The notes beneath the pieces are model-generated. The model was not told the DNA's origin and did no database searches. It saw only the letters and a program-made list of their open reading frames with translations. This document shows positions 23,500 to 43,224 of a stretch of DNA of 64,000 bases, in pieces (positions within the stretch are counted from its first letter, which is position 1; each line of letters starts with the position of its first letter). The stretch is from Halothiobacillus diazotrophicus (GTDB lineage: Bacteria > Pseudomonadota > Gammaproteobacteria > Halothiobacillales > Halothiobacillaceae): positions 2,728,501 through 2,792,500 of the forward strand of contig NZ_CP016027.1 in NCBI RefSeq assembly GCF_001663815.1, given 5' to 3'. The translations under genes and the position numbers were made by a program.

Positions 23500-24471
23500 T
23501 TACGAATCCAGCGGACTGACCACACCCCGCCCGCCCTTGTTCAGCACATGGGTGTAGATCATAGTGGTCGCTACATCCTTGTGGCCGAGCAAGGCCTGGA
23601 TGGTGCGAATATCCTGACCGCGTTCGAGCAGATGGGTGGCAAACGAATGGCGCAGGGTGTGTGGCGTGGCGGGCTTCACGATGCCAGAGGCATGAACCGC
23701 CTTTTTCATGGCGCGCTGCAACAACTTCTCATCCAGATGATGGCGCTGTTCCGCGCCGCTGCGGGGATCGATCGAGAATCCCCCGGCAGGAAAAACATAC
23801 TGCCAGCCCCATTCCGTCGGCGCATTCGGATACTTGATCGCCAGGGCATGAGGCAGATACACCCGAGCCTTGCCCGCAGCCAAATCGTCATCGAACAGCG
23901 CTCGGCGTTTTTGGAGATGATCGCGCAGGGCCGGCACCAGGGATTCCGGCAGCATCGTCACCCGATCCTTCGCCCCCTTGCCGTCACGGATAATGATTTC
24001 ACCCCGGGCGAAATCCACATCCTTCACACGCAGGCGCACGCACTCCATCAGGCGCATGCCGGTACCGTAGAGCATGGATGTCATCAGCCCATAAGTGCCC
24101 GACATGCGATGCAGAATCGCCATCACTTCTTCCCGGGTGAGCACCACAGGCAAACGCTGGGGCCGCTTGGCGCGGGTCACATTGTCCAGCCAGGGCAAAT
24201 CGATGCCCAGCACCTCACGGTATAAAAACAGCAAGGCGGACAATGCCTGATTCTGCGTGGCCGCAGCCACATCGCGGGAAACCGCCAGATGAGTGAGAAA
24301 CGCTTCGACCTCCGGCGCCCCCATTTCCCGAGGGTGCCGCTTGCCGTGGAAGAGAATGAATCGCCTAATCCATTGAAGGTATTGAGTTTCCGTGCGGATA
24401 CTGTAATGCTTGACCCGAATCAGATCACGCACCTGATCCAGCAATTTCGGCGGAGGTGTGTTTGCTTCCAT
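23500..24471 (-). CDS. intI: Integron integrase, tyrosine recombinase
   Basis: 323-residue site-specific recombinase that inserts and excises cassettes by recombining attC with attI. The catalytic set is complete: Arg140, Lys165, His271, Arg274, His297 and nucleophile Tyr306. It contains the IntI-specific insertion between the second and third conserved blocks (residues about 225-255), which binds folded attC hairpins. It is transcribed away from the array, the usual arrangement. AGAGGG lies eight bases before ATG 24471. The gene is intact, so the integron may be active. Confidence 0.95.
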   Translation of the reverse strand: MEANTPPPKLLDQVRDLIRVKHYSIRTETQYLQWIRRFILFHGKRHPREMGAPEVEAFLTHLAVSRDVAAATQNQALSALLFLYREVLGIDLPWLDNVTRAKRPQRLPVVLTREEVMAILHRMSGTYGLMTSMLYGTGMRLMECVRLRVKDVDFARGEIIIRDGKGAKDRVTMLPESLVPALRDHLQKRRALFDDDLAAGKARVYLPHALAIKYPNAPTEWGWQYVFPAGGFSIDPRSGAEQRHHLDEKLLQRAMKKAVHASGIVKPATPHTLRHSFATHLLERGQDIRTIQALLGHKDVATTMIYTHVLNKGGRGVVSPLDS

Positions 24472-24594
24472 CCATGAAGCCCTCTATTTTTCCAAGGATC
24501 AATTAAAACATATGGATACAGATGTGACGACCATGTTATACACCTACCCCTTACCGAAATATACACCTGTTAAGGTGTATATTGCTTGTTAGCT
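24472..24594. other. attI region with perfect palindrome
   Basis: The first cassette joins at core GTTAGCT (24588-24594). Just before it is a perfect 11-base inverted repeat AATATACACCT / AGGTGTATATT with a four-base loop (24558-24583), and TATACACCT also occurs as a direct repeat at 24538-24546, 22 bases from the copy at 24560. These are probable IntI-binding sites. The region should also hold the integrase and cassette promoters, but I see no convincing sigma-70 or LexA box. Confidence 0.75.
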
Positions 24595-24621
24595 CAAGAA
24601 ACGAAACCCAAAGGAAACCGG

Positions 24622-25473
24622 ATGAAAGTCTTCATCAGTTGGTCAGGTGAAACGAGCAAGAAAGTAGCCGAGGCAATCCGCGAATGGCTGCCTCAGGTGC
24701 TTCAAACCGTGAAGCCATATTTCACTCCCAGTGACATCGAGAAAGGCACTCGATGGTCATCCGATATCGCAAATGAACTGGATGATTCGATGGCGGGGAT
24801 CTTCTGCGTAACGAAGGAAAACCTCAGTAGTCAGTGGTTAATGTTTGAAGCGGGGGCTATTTCCAAGCGCGTCGAACACTCATTGGTTTGCCCTATACTG
24901 ATTGGCCTTGAGAATTCCGACATCAACGGGCCTCTAACGCAATTCCAAACAACCTTATTCGAGAAATCGGACATCAAAAAGTTGGTGCTCGATATCAACA
25001 AGGCAAACAAAGAACACACCCTTGAAGAATCTGTTCTTAATAATGTGTTTGAAAAGTTTTGGCCTGAGTTAGACGCCAAAGTCACAGCAGCAATGAAGGC
25101 TGGTGAGGTTGGTGATGCACATGATGCAGACATCCGATCTGACAGAGAAGTTTTAGAAGAGGTATTAGAGCTTTCACGCGCCTTGGCCATACAGAAGTCG
25201 GGCGGCTTCAAGCTCCACGATGAGCTAAATAAACGAATATCCAACTTCTTGGTTAGCTACCGCGTGATCTTTGAAGACGACTGGGAGCACACAAAAGGTT
25301 GCCTTGAGAACAGTGAGTACTTCATTAGTGAGCAGGGCTCGTTTATCGAGCCTAGGGTTTCAGATGAAGGTAATAACTGGGGTAACCGGCCGTTTTTGCT
25401 CAATTCTTATAGGCGGCTAATCGAATACATTCACAAGAACAACATCGATATCAAAACCGCATATGGTGAATGA
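24622..25473 (+). CDS. Cassette 1: TIR-domain protein
   Basis: 283-residue protein with an N-terminal TIR domain: FISWSGETSKKVAEAIREWL, a central region, and SSQWLMFEAGAI, whose Glu76 is at the position of the catalytic Glu of TIR NAD-glycohydrolases. The C-terminal half is helical and unrecognised; it may be a sensor. TIR proteins often act in anti-phage abortive infection by NAD depletion, which is inferred here. As the attI-proximal cassette it should be the best expressed. AAAGGAA lies before ATG 24622. Its stop TGA ends on the first base of the attC. Confidence 0.83.
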   Translation: MKVFISWSGETSKKVAEAIREWLPQVLQTVKPYFTPSDIEKGTRWSSDIANELDDSMAGIFCVTKENLSSQWLMFEAGAISKRVEHSLVCPILIGLENSDINGPLTQFQTTLFEKSDIKKLVLDINKANKEHTLEESVLNNVFEKFWPELDAKVTAAMKAGEVGDAHDADIRSDREVLEEVLELSRALAIQKSGGFKLHDELNKRISNFLVSYRVIFEDDWEHTKGCLENSEYFISEQGSFIEPRVSDEGNNWGNRPFLLNSYRRLIEYIHKNNIDIKTAYGE

Positions 25474-26122: not shown

Positions 26123-26386
26123 ACTACGGTAATTCGGGGCGTCTTCTATCAGCAGTCTGGCTGCCAAATCAGGCTGCAAACAAACCCCAAAATCCGGCTC
26201 GCGCATCGTCGGGGCTTGGTGCATTGTGGCAAACAAGAGTGTCGCTTACAGGGAGGTTCCGAACGTCATGCATTCGCAGTTTTTGCATTACATCGTGCCT
26301 AACATCACGCTCAACCCGACCGCCCACCGGCTACGCCGCTGGGTTCCCTCCGCGCGCCGCGCTACGGCGGCGGGTTAGCTTAGGCG
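26117..26386 (+). repeat. Repeat cassette 3 (270 bases)
   Basis: First copy of the repeated ORF-poor cassette. It begins TTATGCACTACGG (A type) and ends in the shared 96-base attC (26297-26392). The 5' core TTATGC is not fully complementary to R'' GCCTAAC. It differs from other copies in several bases, including GTGCATTGTGG. Confidence 0.93.
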
Positions 26387-26658
26387 TTAGGCACTCGGGT
26401 GATTCTTGGTGTTTTCTGTCATCAGTTCGGTAGCCCAATCTGGCCGCAAACACGCCCTTCAAATTCCGGGTCGCGCATCATTTGGGCTTGGTGCATAGTG
26501 GCAAGCAAGGGCGTCGCCCACAGGGAGGTTCCGCACGTCATGGTTTCATCGTCATTTCATCATCCCGCGCCTAACATCACGCTCAACCCGACCGCCCACC
26601 GGCTGCGCCGATGGGTTCCCTCCGCGCGTCGCGCTCCGGCGGCGGGTTAGCTTAGGCG
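26387..26658 (+). repeat. Repeat cassette 4 (272 bases)
   Basis: B-type copy starting TTAGGCACTCGGG, with attC 26569-26664. By eye it is base-for-base the same as cassette 29 almost 10 kb away. A GTG-started frame of 83 codons (26399-26650) is open here but is broken in most other copies. Confidence 0.93.
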
Positions 26659-26931
26659 TTAGGCACTCTGGAGGTTCTTGGTGTTTTCTGTCATCAGTTC
26701 GGTAGCCCAATCTGGCTGCAAACACGCCCTTCAAATTCCGGGTCGCGCATCAGTTGGGGCTTGGTGCATAGTGGTAGGGATGGGCGTCGCCCACAGGGAG
26801 GTACCGCAGGTCATGGGTTCATCGTCATTTCATCATCCCGCGCCTAACATCACGCTCAACCCGACCGCCCACCGGCTGCGCCGCTGGGTTCCCTCCGCGC
26901 GCTGCGCTCCGGCGGCGGGTTAGCTTAGGCG
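26659..26931 (+). repeat. Repeat cassette 5 (273 bases)
   Basis: B-type copy with one extra base in the CATCAGTTGGGGC segment, which shifts the frame relative to cassette 4. attC 26842-26937. Confidence 0.93.
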
Positions 26932-27201
26932 TTATGCACTACGGTAATTCGGGGCGTCTTCTATCAGCAGTCTGGCTGCCGCATCAGGCTGCAAACAAAT
27001 CCCAAATTCCGGCTCGCGCATCGTTTTGGCTTGGTGCATAGTGGCAAACAAGGGCGTCGCCCACAGGGAGGTACCGCACGTCATGTGTTCATCGTCTTTT
27101 CAACATCCCGCGCCTAACATCACGCTCAACCCGACCGCCCACCGGCTGCGCCGTTGGGTACCCTCCGCGCGCCGCGCTCCGGCGGCGGGTTAGCTTAGGC
27201 G
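26932..27201 (+). repeat. Repeat cassette 6 (270 bases)
   Basis: A-type copy (TTATGC start, CGGGGCGTCTTC). It appears identical to cassette 15 and differs from cassette 7 at one base. attC 27112-27207. Confidence 0.93.
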
Positions 27202-27471
27202 TTATGCACTACGGTAATTCGGGGCGTCTTCTATCAGCAGTCTGGCTGCCGCATCAGGCTGCAAACAAATCCCAAATTCCGGCTCGCGCATCGTTTTGGC
27301 TTGGTGCATAGTGGCAAACAAGGGCGTCGCCCACAGGGAGGTACCGCACGGCATGTGTTCATCGTCTTTTCAACATCCCGCGCCTAACATCACGCTCAAC
27401 CCGACCGCCCACCGGCTGCGCCGTTGGGTACCCTCCGCGCGCCGCGCTCCGGCGGCGGGTTAGCTTAGGCG
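27202..27471 (+). repeat. Repeat cassette 7 (270 bases)
   Basis: Tandem near-duplicate of cassette 6; the only difference seen is CACGGCATG in place of CACGTCATG. attC 27382-27477. Confidence 0.93.
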
Positions 27472-27741
27472 TTATGCGCTACGGTAATTCGGGGCGTCTT
27501 CTATCAGCAGTCTGGCTGCCGCATCAGGCTGCAAACAAATCCCAAATTCCGGCTCGCGCATCGTTTTGGCTTGGTGCATAGTGGCAAGCAAGGGCGTCGC
27601 CCACAGGGAGGTACCGCACATCATGCGTTTGCAGTCTTATCATCATCCCGCGCCTAACATCACGCCCAACCCGACCGCCCACCGGCTGCGCCGTTGGGTT
27701 CCCTCCGCGCGCCGCGCTCCGGCGGCGGGTTAGCTTAGGCG
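27472..27741 (+). repeat. Repeat cassette 8 (270 bases)
   Basis: A-type 5' half joined to a variant 3' half (ATGCGTTTGCAGTC, and CACGCCCAACC inside the attC) that is also seen in cassette 21; it looks like a mosaic. attC 27652-27747. Confidence 0.93.
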
Positions 27742-28013
27742 TTAGGCACTTGGGCGATTCTTGGTGTTCTCTGTCAGCAGTTCGGTAGCCCAATCTGGCC
27801 GCAAACACGCCCTTCAATTTCCCGGTCGCGCATCGTTGGGGCTTGGTGCATAGTGGCAGGGAAGGGCGTCGTCTACAGGGAGGTACCGCAGGTCATGGGT
27901 TCGCAGTTTTTGCATTACATCGCGCCTAACATCACGCTCAACCCGACCGCCCACCGGCTGCGCCGTTGGGTTCCCTCCGCGCGCCGCGCTCCGGCGGCGG
28001 GTTAGCTTAGGCG
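27742..28013 (+). repeat. Repeat cassette 9 (272 bases)
   Basis: B-type copy with the TTCGCAGTTTTTGCATTACATCG-like variant before R'' (shared with cassettes 3, 17 and 36). attC 27924-28019. Confidence 0.93.
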
Positions 28014-28285
28014 TTAGGCACTTGGGCGATTCTTGGTGTTCTCTGTCATCAGTTCGGTAGCCCAAATTGGCTGCAAACACCCCCTTCAAATCCCGGGTCG
28101 CGTATCGTCGGGGCTTGGTGCATAGTGGCAGGGAAGGCCGTCACCCACAGGGAGGTACCGCGCGTTATGCGTTCATCGTCATTCCATTATCCCGCGCCTA
28201 ACATCACGCTCAACCCGACCGCCCACCGGCTGCGCCGCTGGGTTCCCTCCGCGCTTCGCGCTCCGGCGGCGGGTTAGCTTAGGCG
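28014..28285 (+). repeat. Repeat cassette 10 (272 bases)
   Basis: Last of the run of eight consecutive repeat cassettes (3-10). B type. attC 28196-28291 joins to core GTTAGCC of cassette 11. Confidence 0.93.
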
Positions 28286-28293
28286 TTAGCCCC

Positions 28294-28737
28294 ATGGATG
28301 AAGACGACTTCTACTTGAAAGTTGCACACGCCCTGTCGGGCTGCCAGCTCGTCGAGCAACAACTTAAGCTCTACATCACTGAGGCTCTTGAGCTCGCAAA
28401 AAAGTGCATTGGCGAAAAAATACCCTTCAAGATGGCTGGCGACGACTATGCCGACTCTTCATTGGAGCGGCTCATCGAGATTTTCAAGAAACTGTCCGAC
28501 AACGAGAAGCTTGTGACTGACCTCAGGAGGTTCAAGGATGAGAGAAACTTCCTCAGTCACAAGGGCATAACACATTGCCTCGACTACGAGGGCGAGTTAT
28601 CTCATTCGACCGCACTTGAATTGCAAGAACGGCTGGAGGCCATCCAAGAGGAGGCGAAACTGTTGTATGTTGCCATTCATGAAGAAGCGAACAAATTTCG
28701 TGGGTATCTGTGGTTCGATGACCTCACCGCGGGCTAA
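28294..28737 (+). CDS. Cassette 11: HEPN-like helical protein
   Basis: 147-residue, mostly helical, acidic protein of no family I can name. The segment DERNFLSHKG contains R84-x4-H89 with Asn after Arg, the RX4-6H pattern of HEPN ribonucleases, placed between two long helices as in that fold. HEPN proteins are common toxins or defence effectors; no partner gene is in the cassette. ATG 28294 lies eight bases after the cassette start without a ribosome site. The stop TAA is part of R'' (GGCTAAC). Confidence 0.7.
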   Translation: MDEDDFYLKVAHALSGCQLVEQQLKLYITEALELAKKCIGEKIPFKMAGDDYADSSLERLIEIFKKLSDNEKLVTDLRRFKDERNFLSHKGITHCLDYEGELSHSTALELQERLEAIQEEAKLLYVAIHEEANKFRGYLWFDDLTAG

Positions 28738-29411: not shown

Positions 29412-30224
29412 GTGTCCGATCTCACAATAATGGAAAAGAGAAAACTTGAACGTGCCTTCGGCATGGGGAGTGGCTATGTTCTCGACTTTTCCAATCGAAC
29501 GTTTGAGGAATTTATCCTGGAAAGCGTTGGGATCGAGATTTACGACGAGAAATATGATTATGCGAGCGGTTCAAAAGCAAATCGCATGAGAGCATTTTGG
29601 GACAGAGAGTCGAATTACTTAGTCGGCAAGTTACTGGGAGATATCTTTGATAACTGGGACGAACTAAATCATGGTTACGAAAAAAAGCCAATCCCAGACG
29701 ATTGTATAAAGATCGTTCAGCGCTTAAAAACCAGTGCCCCGGTACCGGACATAGACGCTGTCGAACCAAATACAGATGATAAAGATTTTGAAACATTGGC
29801 CAAGTCAGTGCGTGAAGCAATAGACCGCAATGAGCCAGAAACAGGATTAGATAGGCTTCATACGTTTGTTACAAAATATTTCAGAGTTCTGTGTGAAAAA
29901 CATGGAATTTCTACTGAGTGGGATAAGCCATTACACAGCTTGGTAGGCGAGTATGTTAAGCACTTAAAGAGCGAGGGGCTAATTGAGTCAGAAATGACTG
30001 AACGGATACTTAAGTCCAGTATTTCAGTTATGGAAGCTTTCAACAAAGTAAGGAATCAGCAAAGCTACGCTCATGATAATGAGGTTCTCAATTACAACGA
30101 AAGCTTGCTTATATTCGGCCATGTAACAAGCTCTATTCGGTTCATCAAGGCAATTGAGGATGCTCGACGCAGAAAAACCGCTGAGAATGTTTCGGCAAAT
30201 GAATTTGACGATATTCCATTCTGA
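29412..30224 (+). CDS. Cassette 14: abortive-infection (AbiJ-like) protein
   Basis: 270-residue protein. The N-terminal part (FSNRTFEEFILESVGIEIYD, then SGSKANRMRAFWDRE and VGKLLGDIFDNW) resembles N-terminal domains of AbiJ-type abortive infection proteins. The C-terminal helical domain contains VRNQQSYAHD with R214-x6-H221, a HEPN RX4-6H motif. The architecture suggests an anti-phage suicide ribonuclease; activity is not shown. GTG start at 29412 with GGAGA upstream; the next in-frame ATG (29430) would remove six residues. Confidence 0.75.
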   Translation: MSDLTIMEKRKLERAFGMGSGYVLDFSNRTFEEFILESVGIEIYDEKYDYASGSKANRMRAFWDRESNYLVGKLLGDIFDNWDELNHGYEKKPIPDDCIKIVQRLKTSAPVPDIDAVEPNTDDKDFETLAKSVREAIDRNEPETGLDRLHTFVTKYFRVLCEKHGISTEWDKPLHSLVGEYVKHLKSEGLIESEMTERILKSSISVMEAFNKVRNQQSYAHDNEVLNYNESLLIFGHVTSSIRFIKAIEDARRRKTAENVSANEFDDIPF

Positions 30225-36141: not shown

Positions 36142-36213
36142 ATCTAACACGGCGCTCAAAATGGACGCAAATTCCGCTGCGCTCCATTTGCGCCCTTTAG
36201 CTAGGCGTTAGGC
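36142..36213 (+). other. attC of cassette 28
   Basis: 72 bases; R'' ATCTAAC complements own core GTTAGAT; right core GTTAGGC. Cassette 28 spans 35296-36207. Confidence 0.85.
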
Positions 36214-36479
36214 ACTCGGGTGATTCTTGGTGTTTTCTGTCATCAGTTCGGTAGCCCAATCTGGCCGCAAACACGCCCTTCAAATTCCGGGTCGCGCATC
36301 ATTTGGGCTTGGTGCATAGTGGCAAGCAAGGGCGTCGCCCACAGGGAGGTTCCGCACGTCATGGTTTCATCGTCATTTCATCATCCCGCGCCTAACATCA
36401 CGCTCAACCCGACCGCCCACCGGCTGCGCCGATGGGTTCCCTCCGCGCGTCGCGCTCCGGCGGCGGGTTAGCTTAGGCG
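36208..36479 (+). repeat. Repeat cassette 29 (272 bases)
   Basis: Appears identical to cassette 4 over its whole length. attC 36390-36485, right core GTTAGCT. Confidence 0.93.
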
Positions 36480-36503
36480 TTAGCTGCTTCAAGGAGAAAG
36501 TTC

Positions 36504-42351: not shown

Positions 42352-43224
42352 CTAGACACATTCCAACCGTTCGTGGTGACGCCGCTCGTAGTCTACAGGC
42401 GACATCAATTCGTTAGAACCATGATGACGTCGGGTGTTATAGAACATCTCGATGTAATCGAAGATGTCAGCCCGGGCTTCGTCTCTTGTGTTGTAGATTT
42501 TCCGTTTTACCCGCTCACGTTTCAGTAGCTGAAAGAAGCTTTCCGCGACCGCATTGTCGTGGCAATTGCCGCGCCGGCTCATGCTGCCCTCCAGCCCGTG
42601 GGCTCTCAGAAACGCACTCCAGTCGTGACTGGTGTATTGGCTGCCTTGATCCGAATGCACCACCACCTTGCCGGTGGGTTTGCGCCGCCATACGGCCATC
42701 AACAACGCATCCAGCACCAAATCTCGGGTAATCCGTGATTGCATGGACCAACCGATGACCCGGCGCGAGAACAAATCCAGTACCACCGCCAGATACAACC
42801 AGCCCTCGTGGGTACGGATATGCGTGATGTCGGTCACCCAGCCCTCGTTCGGTGCCTCCGAGTTGAACTGACGCTGCAGACGATTTGGGGTGACCTGGTG
42901 GACAGTGCCGGCCCTGTGTCGTGGTTTTCGATAACCCACCTGTGCCCGTATACCTGCTCCGCGCATGAGGCGATGCACGCGGTTGGGACCGCATGTCTCG
43001 CCAACCTCACGTAGATCGCTGTGAATCTTGCGATAGCCATAGACGGCCCCCGACTCTAGCCAGAACTGTTTGATCAGCCCCGATAAGCGGTCATCCTCGC
43101 GACTTCGTGCAGACCGTGGTGCGCGCATCCAGGCGTAGAACCCGCTCGGATGCACATCCAGTAAGGCGCATAGCCGTCGCACAGCCCACTGCTTACGATG
43201 TTCCGCAATAAAGGCGTACCTCAC
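42352..43224 (-). CDS. IS3-family transposase OrfB (DDE domain)
   Basis: 290-residue integrase-like catalytic subunit. The DDE triad is visible: WVTDITHI (Asp), VVHSDQGSQY (Asp) and VAESFFQLLKRE (Glu), preceded by an HTH_21-type domain with YGYRKIH. Its ATG overlaps the orfA stop (ATGA), and it lies in the -1 frame, so the active protein is probably the OrfAB fusion. The frame is intact, so the element may be active. Confidence 0.93.
   Translation of the reverse strand: MRYAFIAEHRKQWAVRRLCALLDVHPSGFYAWMRAPRSARSREDDRLSGLIKQFWLESGAVYGYRKIHSDLREVGETCGPNRVHRLMRGAGIRAQVGYRKPRHRAGTVHQVTPNRLQRQFNSEAPNEGWVTDITHIRTHEGWLYLAVVLDLFSRRVIGWSMQSRITRDLVLDALLMAVWRRKPTGKVVVHSDQGSQYTSHDWSAFLRAHGLEGSMSRRGNCHDNAVAESFFQLLKRERVKRKIYNTRDEARADIFDYIEMFYNTRRHHGSNELMSPVDYERRHHERLECV

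Follow-up and report, generated by a model that had tools for sequence, protein, structure and literature searches.

The cassette array of Halothiobacillus diazotrophicus contains a short unit that recurs many times over, and each copy of it in the array carries a motif resembling a ribosome-binding site, an ATG and a 36-codon open reading frame that ends within the attC recombination site. What keeps such a frame open in copy after copy? An initial annotation of the sequence offered two functional answers, a leader-type peptide or a translated attC that would prevent hairpin folding, and allowed that the residues might also be neutral. Here we address this question in a window of 64,000 nucleotides (the whole stretch of DNA that was analysed), which belongs to a host genome consisting of a single contig of 2,908,964 bases, and in the genomes of relatives. 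We show that the observation was true and that the boundary drawn around it was mistaken: the 36-codon frame continues upstream of its ATG, a continuation that the annotation had overlooked.

A multiplied cassette beside an integron integrase gene

The array follows the gene for the integron integrase IntI, which lies on the minus strand at 23500-24471 and encodes a protein of 323 aa (TIGR02249 489.5 bits against a cut-off of 265; Pfam Phage_integrase 7.8e-39). This is the sole TIGR02249 match above the family cut-off anywhere in the genome, four others falling below it. Cassettes extend from there to about 42.3 kb of the window, and the array thus adjoins an integron integrase gene, as is expected of integron cassettes. 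Among them a cassette of about 272 bp is present in 20 copies between 26121 and 40983, of which the one considered in detail here occupies 26387-26658 of the plus strand (272 bp from R' cut to R' cut). Its attC site, at 26569-26664 of the plus strand, comprises an R'' box (GCCTAAC, 26569-26575), an L' box (GGGTTAGC, 26644-26651) that contains a TAG, and an R' box (GTTAGGC, 26658-26664); the box names follow the usual attC layout. The bottom strand of the site, folded for one copy, forms a hairpin of -29.3 kcal/mol (z -2.88), and only one of 200 shuffled sequences folds as well. Both the R''/R' boxes and the foldable bottom strand of an integron cassette are therefore present.

A further 16 near-full copies are found in the same genome at C1:333-338 kb and 971-989 kb, giving the 36 near-full host-genome (G000) copies that were compared; a 90-nt 5' fragment at L025:10370-10459 was excluded. 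The clusters at these two places (L024, L025 and L026) are far from the only above-cut-off integrase gene, and no IntI match over the cut-off is found near them. Within the window, the focal copy (26390-26662) shares all 273 nt with the one at 36211-36483, about 10 kb away, an identity that points to recent duplication or conversion. The repeats are placed at random among the gene cassettes, the order of 20 repeats and 20 gene cassettes (typed by hand) forming 10 runs against 10.5 expected. Several neighbours in and around the array may be recorded here. The first cassette (24586-25473) encodes a TIR-domain protein (PADLOC TIR-TM 267 bits; Pfam TIR_2) and is a candidate defence gene, a cassette gene at 29412-30224 has an Abi_C (abortive infection C-terminus) domain (7.8e-13), and a transposase-like gene with rve and HTH_21 domains (42352-43224) directly follows the last cassettes and may truncate the end of the array. 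In the related genome G009, the same gene-cassette end is present in two separate arrays (L027:5962-6055 and L028:7542-7636).

Searches with a protein profile detected the cassette in four of ten genomes of the genus, in none of the other genera among 27 genomes of the family and, among 369 genomes of the class, in the host genome only. At the DNA level seven of 96 relatives give a match, which in three of them (G005, G007 and G010) is confined to the attC part; the cassette body is about 80% conserved between the host genome and G009. The cassette is thus restricted to its genus and present in many copies, as are the paralogous cassettes of Vibrio. The encoded protein has no family in NCBIfam, a Pfam hit to MerB (E 0.066) is under the cut-off, a PHROG match (E 0.039) appears in two of seven, and AlphaFold2 gives no confident fold with 14 sequences (mean pLDDT 38.7). 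A PDB profile match to EGFR (E 0.0027) was taken as chance, as were three loci (L021-L023) from a DNA-pattern search of genome contigs. A search of plasmids gave no protein relatives, two plasmid records matching at the DNA level in the attC part only, and no protein relative was confirmed among viral contigs by a method that detects close relatives only. The open-access literature searched, in one library, contained no description that we found of the cassette.

The 36-codon frame and its upstream continuation

Including its stop codon the frame spans 26540-26650 of the plus strand, from the ATG at 26540 to the TAG at 26648-26650. It is preceded by the Shine-Dalgarno-like motif CACAGGGAGGT (26519-26529, plus strand). 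The succession of motif, 10-nt gap, ATG, 36 codons and TAG is found in 20 of 20 window copies, with the motif exact in 16, altered by one mismatch in three and by two in one, and the frame is kept in all 36 near-full host-genome copies. The claim that this arrangement is preserved in every copy of the repeat accordingly stands, and can be extended to the rest of the genome.

The ATG is not the beginning of the open frame. In the focal copy the frame runs for 83 codons (26399-26650, plus strand), opening with a GTG 7 bp beyond the R' box and closing with the L' TAG, so that the 36-codon frame is its 3' end and the motif itself is read as H-R-E-V. All 20 window copies are open in this frame for 26-79 codons upstream of the ATG, although where an indel interrupts the upstream part, only what lies between it and the ATG belongs to the same frame; the full 83 codons are present in the best-preserved copies, whose GTG lies near the start of the cassette. 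Between codons -47 and -1, 23 of the 36 host-genome copies are free of indels and stops (seven begin with GTG and 16 with GCG), an indel or a foreign 5' half is found in 11, and two have a stop. The block is intact in ten of 13 aligned copies from relatives (nine with GTG first, one with TTG), and the fourteenth copy has a TGA. Counted over all 36 host-genome copies, codon -47 is GTG in 10 and GCG in 18, and there is thus no conserved upstream start codon at this position.

The downstream end varies in related genomes. The frame from the ATG through the TAG of the L' box is kept in nine of 14 related-genome copies and lost in four: one copy in G009 has a +1 change within attC, another in G009 has a cut attC and ends after 31 codons, in G002 the attC of one copy is shortened and the frame continues, and a copy in G001 (L031, G001:C113, near 74301-74510) is without attC and continues for 38 codons past the ATG to a TGA that overlaps the ATG of the next gene (ATGA). 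That next gene may resemble DUF488. A fifth copy (G009:C1:296094) reaches 36 codons by another route, with a decayed attC, a TAA end and a changed motif. Frameshifts in copies from related genomes, which the initial annotation had named as the finding that would count against its proposal, therefore do occur, as one clean +1 and three changes of attC, with the fifth copy retaining the length only through a different end.

Codon substitutions along the long frame and in attC

Substitutions were examined by comparing the consensus of the host genome with that of the relatives and scoring the differences as p_syn and p_blosum. The alignment comprised 49 copies; G009:C1:296094 was found later and is absent from it. 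The copy G0c_9238m, whose 5' half is unrelated, was excluded from these consensus tests and from the site-pair test below, and together with G1_8521m, G2_6042p and G9_3978m, in which attC is absent or cut, from the trees, omega runs, neutral simulation and parsimony. Codons -26 to -1 contain 12 differences, seven of them at third positions, and all seven are synonymous (p_syn 0.013, p_blosum 0.0020). Extending the block to -47 leaves a similar result (p_blosum 0.0022, p_syn 0.022), and codons -47 to -27 taken separately show no constraint (p 0.41 and 0.23; omega 1.1). The pattern is also seen in a block directly upstream of the motif (26462-26518, plus strand), where six of eight changed codons are synonymous (p_syn 0.0024, p_blosum 0.0039) and the other two forward frames give no signal; these p-values are nominal, because several blocks and frames were examined and this block was picked after seeing the data. 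Column shuffles over sampled pairs of copies agree with the consensus tests.

Downstream of the ATG the pattern disappears. The first 13 codons, for which the initial annotation had proposed a dN/dS comparison as a check, carry no purifying signal in the consensus comparison (p 0.29 and 0.27) and have a maximum-likelihood omega of 2.0 (2dL 5.9); the suggestion that the residues could be neutral is thus supported. In a neutral simulation, codons 1-12 remain free of stops across 35 host-genome copies with a probability of 0.10-0.40, depending on rate, and the ATG is kept in all 35 simulated copies in at most 6% of runs (P <=0.06). The openness of the frame after the ATG is therefore not beyond chance, whereas in the same simulation the invariance of the ATG is. 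Codons 1-9 after the ATG (segments of the type 26268-26600) are the stretch of the cassette body most variable by substitution, yet have no indel in the 49-copy alignment; across 36 copies they form about 22 haplotypes, which are reassorted relative to the upstream part.

Maximum-likelihood estimates of omega give 0.58 (2dL 8.8) for codons -26 to -1 and 0.79 (2dL 3.4, not significantly below 1) for codons -47 to -1. We do not lean on this test, which is poorly calibrated, because wrong frames also depart from 1, in one case with an omega of 2.2 and a 2dL as high as 13.5. One likely reason for its poor behaviour is that the copies recombine: among 35 copies, 443 of 658 pairs of upstream and downstream sites fail the four-gamete test. 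The copies are therefore not independent witnesses.

The remainder of the 36-codon frame is accounted for by the recombination site. Its last 23 codons are attC sequence, close to the 24 or so residues first ascribed to it, and the TAG sits in the paired L' box. The attC part shows no codon signal in the consensus comparison (p 0.51 and 0.75), and omega is nearly as low in an opposite-strand frame (0.50, 2dL 8.9) as in this one (0.45, 2dL 11.9). The sequence of this part is GC-rich, with a GC content of 0.75 in window copies, and across 45 copies its three forward frames contain 0, 0 and 1 stops. The DNA searches gave 23 partial matches, one of them a 5' fragment and one a duplicate from overlapping stretches, and among ten examined in which only attC matches, beside other genes, eight have the same open frame with the TAG in L' and two are open without the TAG (L028:11219 and L033:128). 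At L025:13183 and L027:4406 an apparent gene in another frame ends in the R'' box. The residues encoded by attC are thus explained by attC itself.

Taken with the continuation upstream, the absence of a purifying signal after the ATG leads us to reject a separate 36-codon gene. Of the answers first offered, neutrality of the residues gains from these results, and a self-standing 36-codon leader loses: the frame extends upstream, the codon-like pattern is located upstream of the putative ribosome site, four of 14 copies from relatives have lost the frame, and in ten of the 20 window copies the next unit is another repeat and not a gene that a dedicated leader could serve.

Candidate explanations and known systems

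The reading that we tentatively prefer, and which could well be right, is that a longer frame, decayed in part, occupies a genus-restricted, multiplied cassette and runs on into attC, the 36 codons being its tail. The frame would be that of a short gene whose start or reading frame has been lost in many host-genome copies, and the copies would have arisen through excision and re-insertion driven by IntI and have been mixed by homologous recombination. Beyond the R'' box the frame would enter attC because nothing stops it, and the peptide encoded there would be a by-product of the structure of the recombination site. Two sets of observations stand against this reading. It does not predict that the motif and the ATG are unchanged in 12 copies in which the upstream frame is broken, and the putative gene has no conserved upstream start, no constraint on its N-terminal 20 codons, and neither a fold nor a family. 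These last features would be expected of a cassette without a gene, which makes no translated product, would exert any effect through its DNA or RNA, for instance as a promoter for downstream cassettes, and has open frames only incidentally. Such cassettes are known: most of 29 gene-less Vibrio cassettes tested show sense promoter activity (PMC11014356), and genus-restricted paralogous non-coding cassettes occur in Vibrio, one family with 45 copies (PMC1382264). We nevertheless regard this explanation as somewhat unlikely here, given the codon-like substitutions in a single frame, the absence of a sigma-70-like promoter on the plus strand of 26390-28300 in a crude consensus scan, and the rejection both of a known RNA family (no Rfam match at E <=1 in 23000-43500) and, for the focal copy, of more RNA structure than expected (z 0.34). 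That the copies are numerous only because their attC recombines well, with a body that currently has no function, is in our view very improbable. The hairpin does fold well and the repeats lie at random among the gene cassettes, as selfish or neutral multiplication would have it, but the body is conserved in G009 and the motif and ATG are conserved too, a likeness that recombination can also maintain.

The conservation of the motif and ATG is the main argument for a different explanation, modelled on ORF-11 of class 1 integrons, in which these signals would recruit ribosomes and the peptide would be irrelevant: ribosomes would melt the hairpin of the attC mRNA, terminate at the L' TAG and reinitiate at the start codon of the cassette that follows. 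The columns of the motif and ATG rank with the best conserved (ten of 11 motif columns, -20 to -10, at 97% or more), and conservation drops sharply directly after the ATG. The invariance of the ATG exceeds that of the neutral simulation, and in the 12 copies whose upstream frame is interrupted by the usual indels or stops, seven motif and three ATG columns are unchanged while 56 upstream columns carry 20 changes, an outcome with a probability of about 0.03 at the upstream rate. According to a review (PMC8876359), ORF-11 of class 1 integrons needs its initiation signals but is largely insensitive to changes in its residues, and relief of the stem-loop by a short ORF within attC has been proposed. 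The same combination of conserved ribosome site and start with unconstrained residues is found here, three host-genome copies with a damaged motif (30971, 38203 and G0c_5315m) aside, and the copy in G001 that has no attC runs into an ATGA overlap with the next gene. Several observations make this explanation unlikely all the same. The frame is no independent short ORF and lies within a longer one, open in every window copy, whose codon-like pattern upstream of the motif is left unexplained; half of the window copies precede another repeat and the repeats are randomly placed; the passage through attC is lost in four of the 14 copies from relatives. In addition, the ATG is matched in conservation by 25 of 168 triplets before attC, the motif does not stand out in accessibility (0.36 unpaired, compared with 0.39 in the cassette body), and its gap to the ATG is 10 nt against the 8 bp quoted for ORF-11 (PMC8876359). 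A broader version of this idea, by analogy a mobile form of the ORF-11 principle, would make the cassette a portable translation starter, dozens of array copies of which send ribosomes through their own attC to whatever cassette follows; this strikes us as quite doubtful.

The cassette can be compared with several described systems. In its conserved initiation signals, short frame into the recombination site, stop near the junction and unimportant residues it is like ORF-11, ORF-17 and ORF-18 of class 1 integrons and the ORF proposed in attC, as these are outlined in the review (PMC8876359), which also relays an earlier proposal, made for class 1 integrons, that a translated attC relieves the hairpin. 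By the same source ORF-11 is located in attI1 and occurs once per integron, whereas the frame here is in a cassette, is present in tens of copies, is continuous with a longer upstream frame and in half of the copies faces another repeat. The paralogous non-coding cassettes of Vibrio, of which one Vibrio vulnificus strain has 45 copies and for which gene conversion has been proposed (Boucher et al. 2006, PMC1382264), share with it their short length, their tens of copies and their absence outside the genus, and according to that study have more than 80% identity between species. The likeness is one of description: the genus is different, a codon-like pattern at synonymous sites extends over part of the body, and the 83-codon frame exceeds the 150-bp limit that those authors applied to non-coding cassettes. 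Gene-less promoter cassettes (PMC11014356, PMC6557892) are likewise short, without an obvious gene and spread through the array; in the present cassette the crude scan shows no sigma-70-like site on the plus strand.

Our work adds a genus-restricted and highly multiplied cassette from outside Vibrio. It also illustrates that a run of intact small ORFs across an array can stem from shared descent, from recombination and from a GC-rich recombination site that is open in all forward frames. If the motif and the ATG do start translation, the repeats would offer a natural experiment, set up across the whole array, on whether the barrier that attC poses to translation is relieved by short ORFs.
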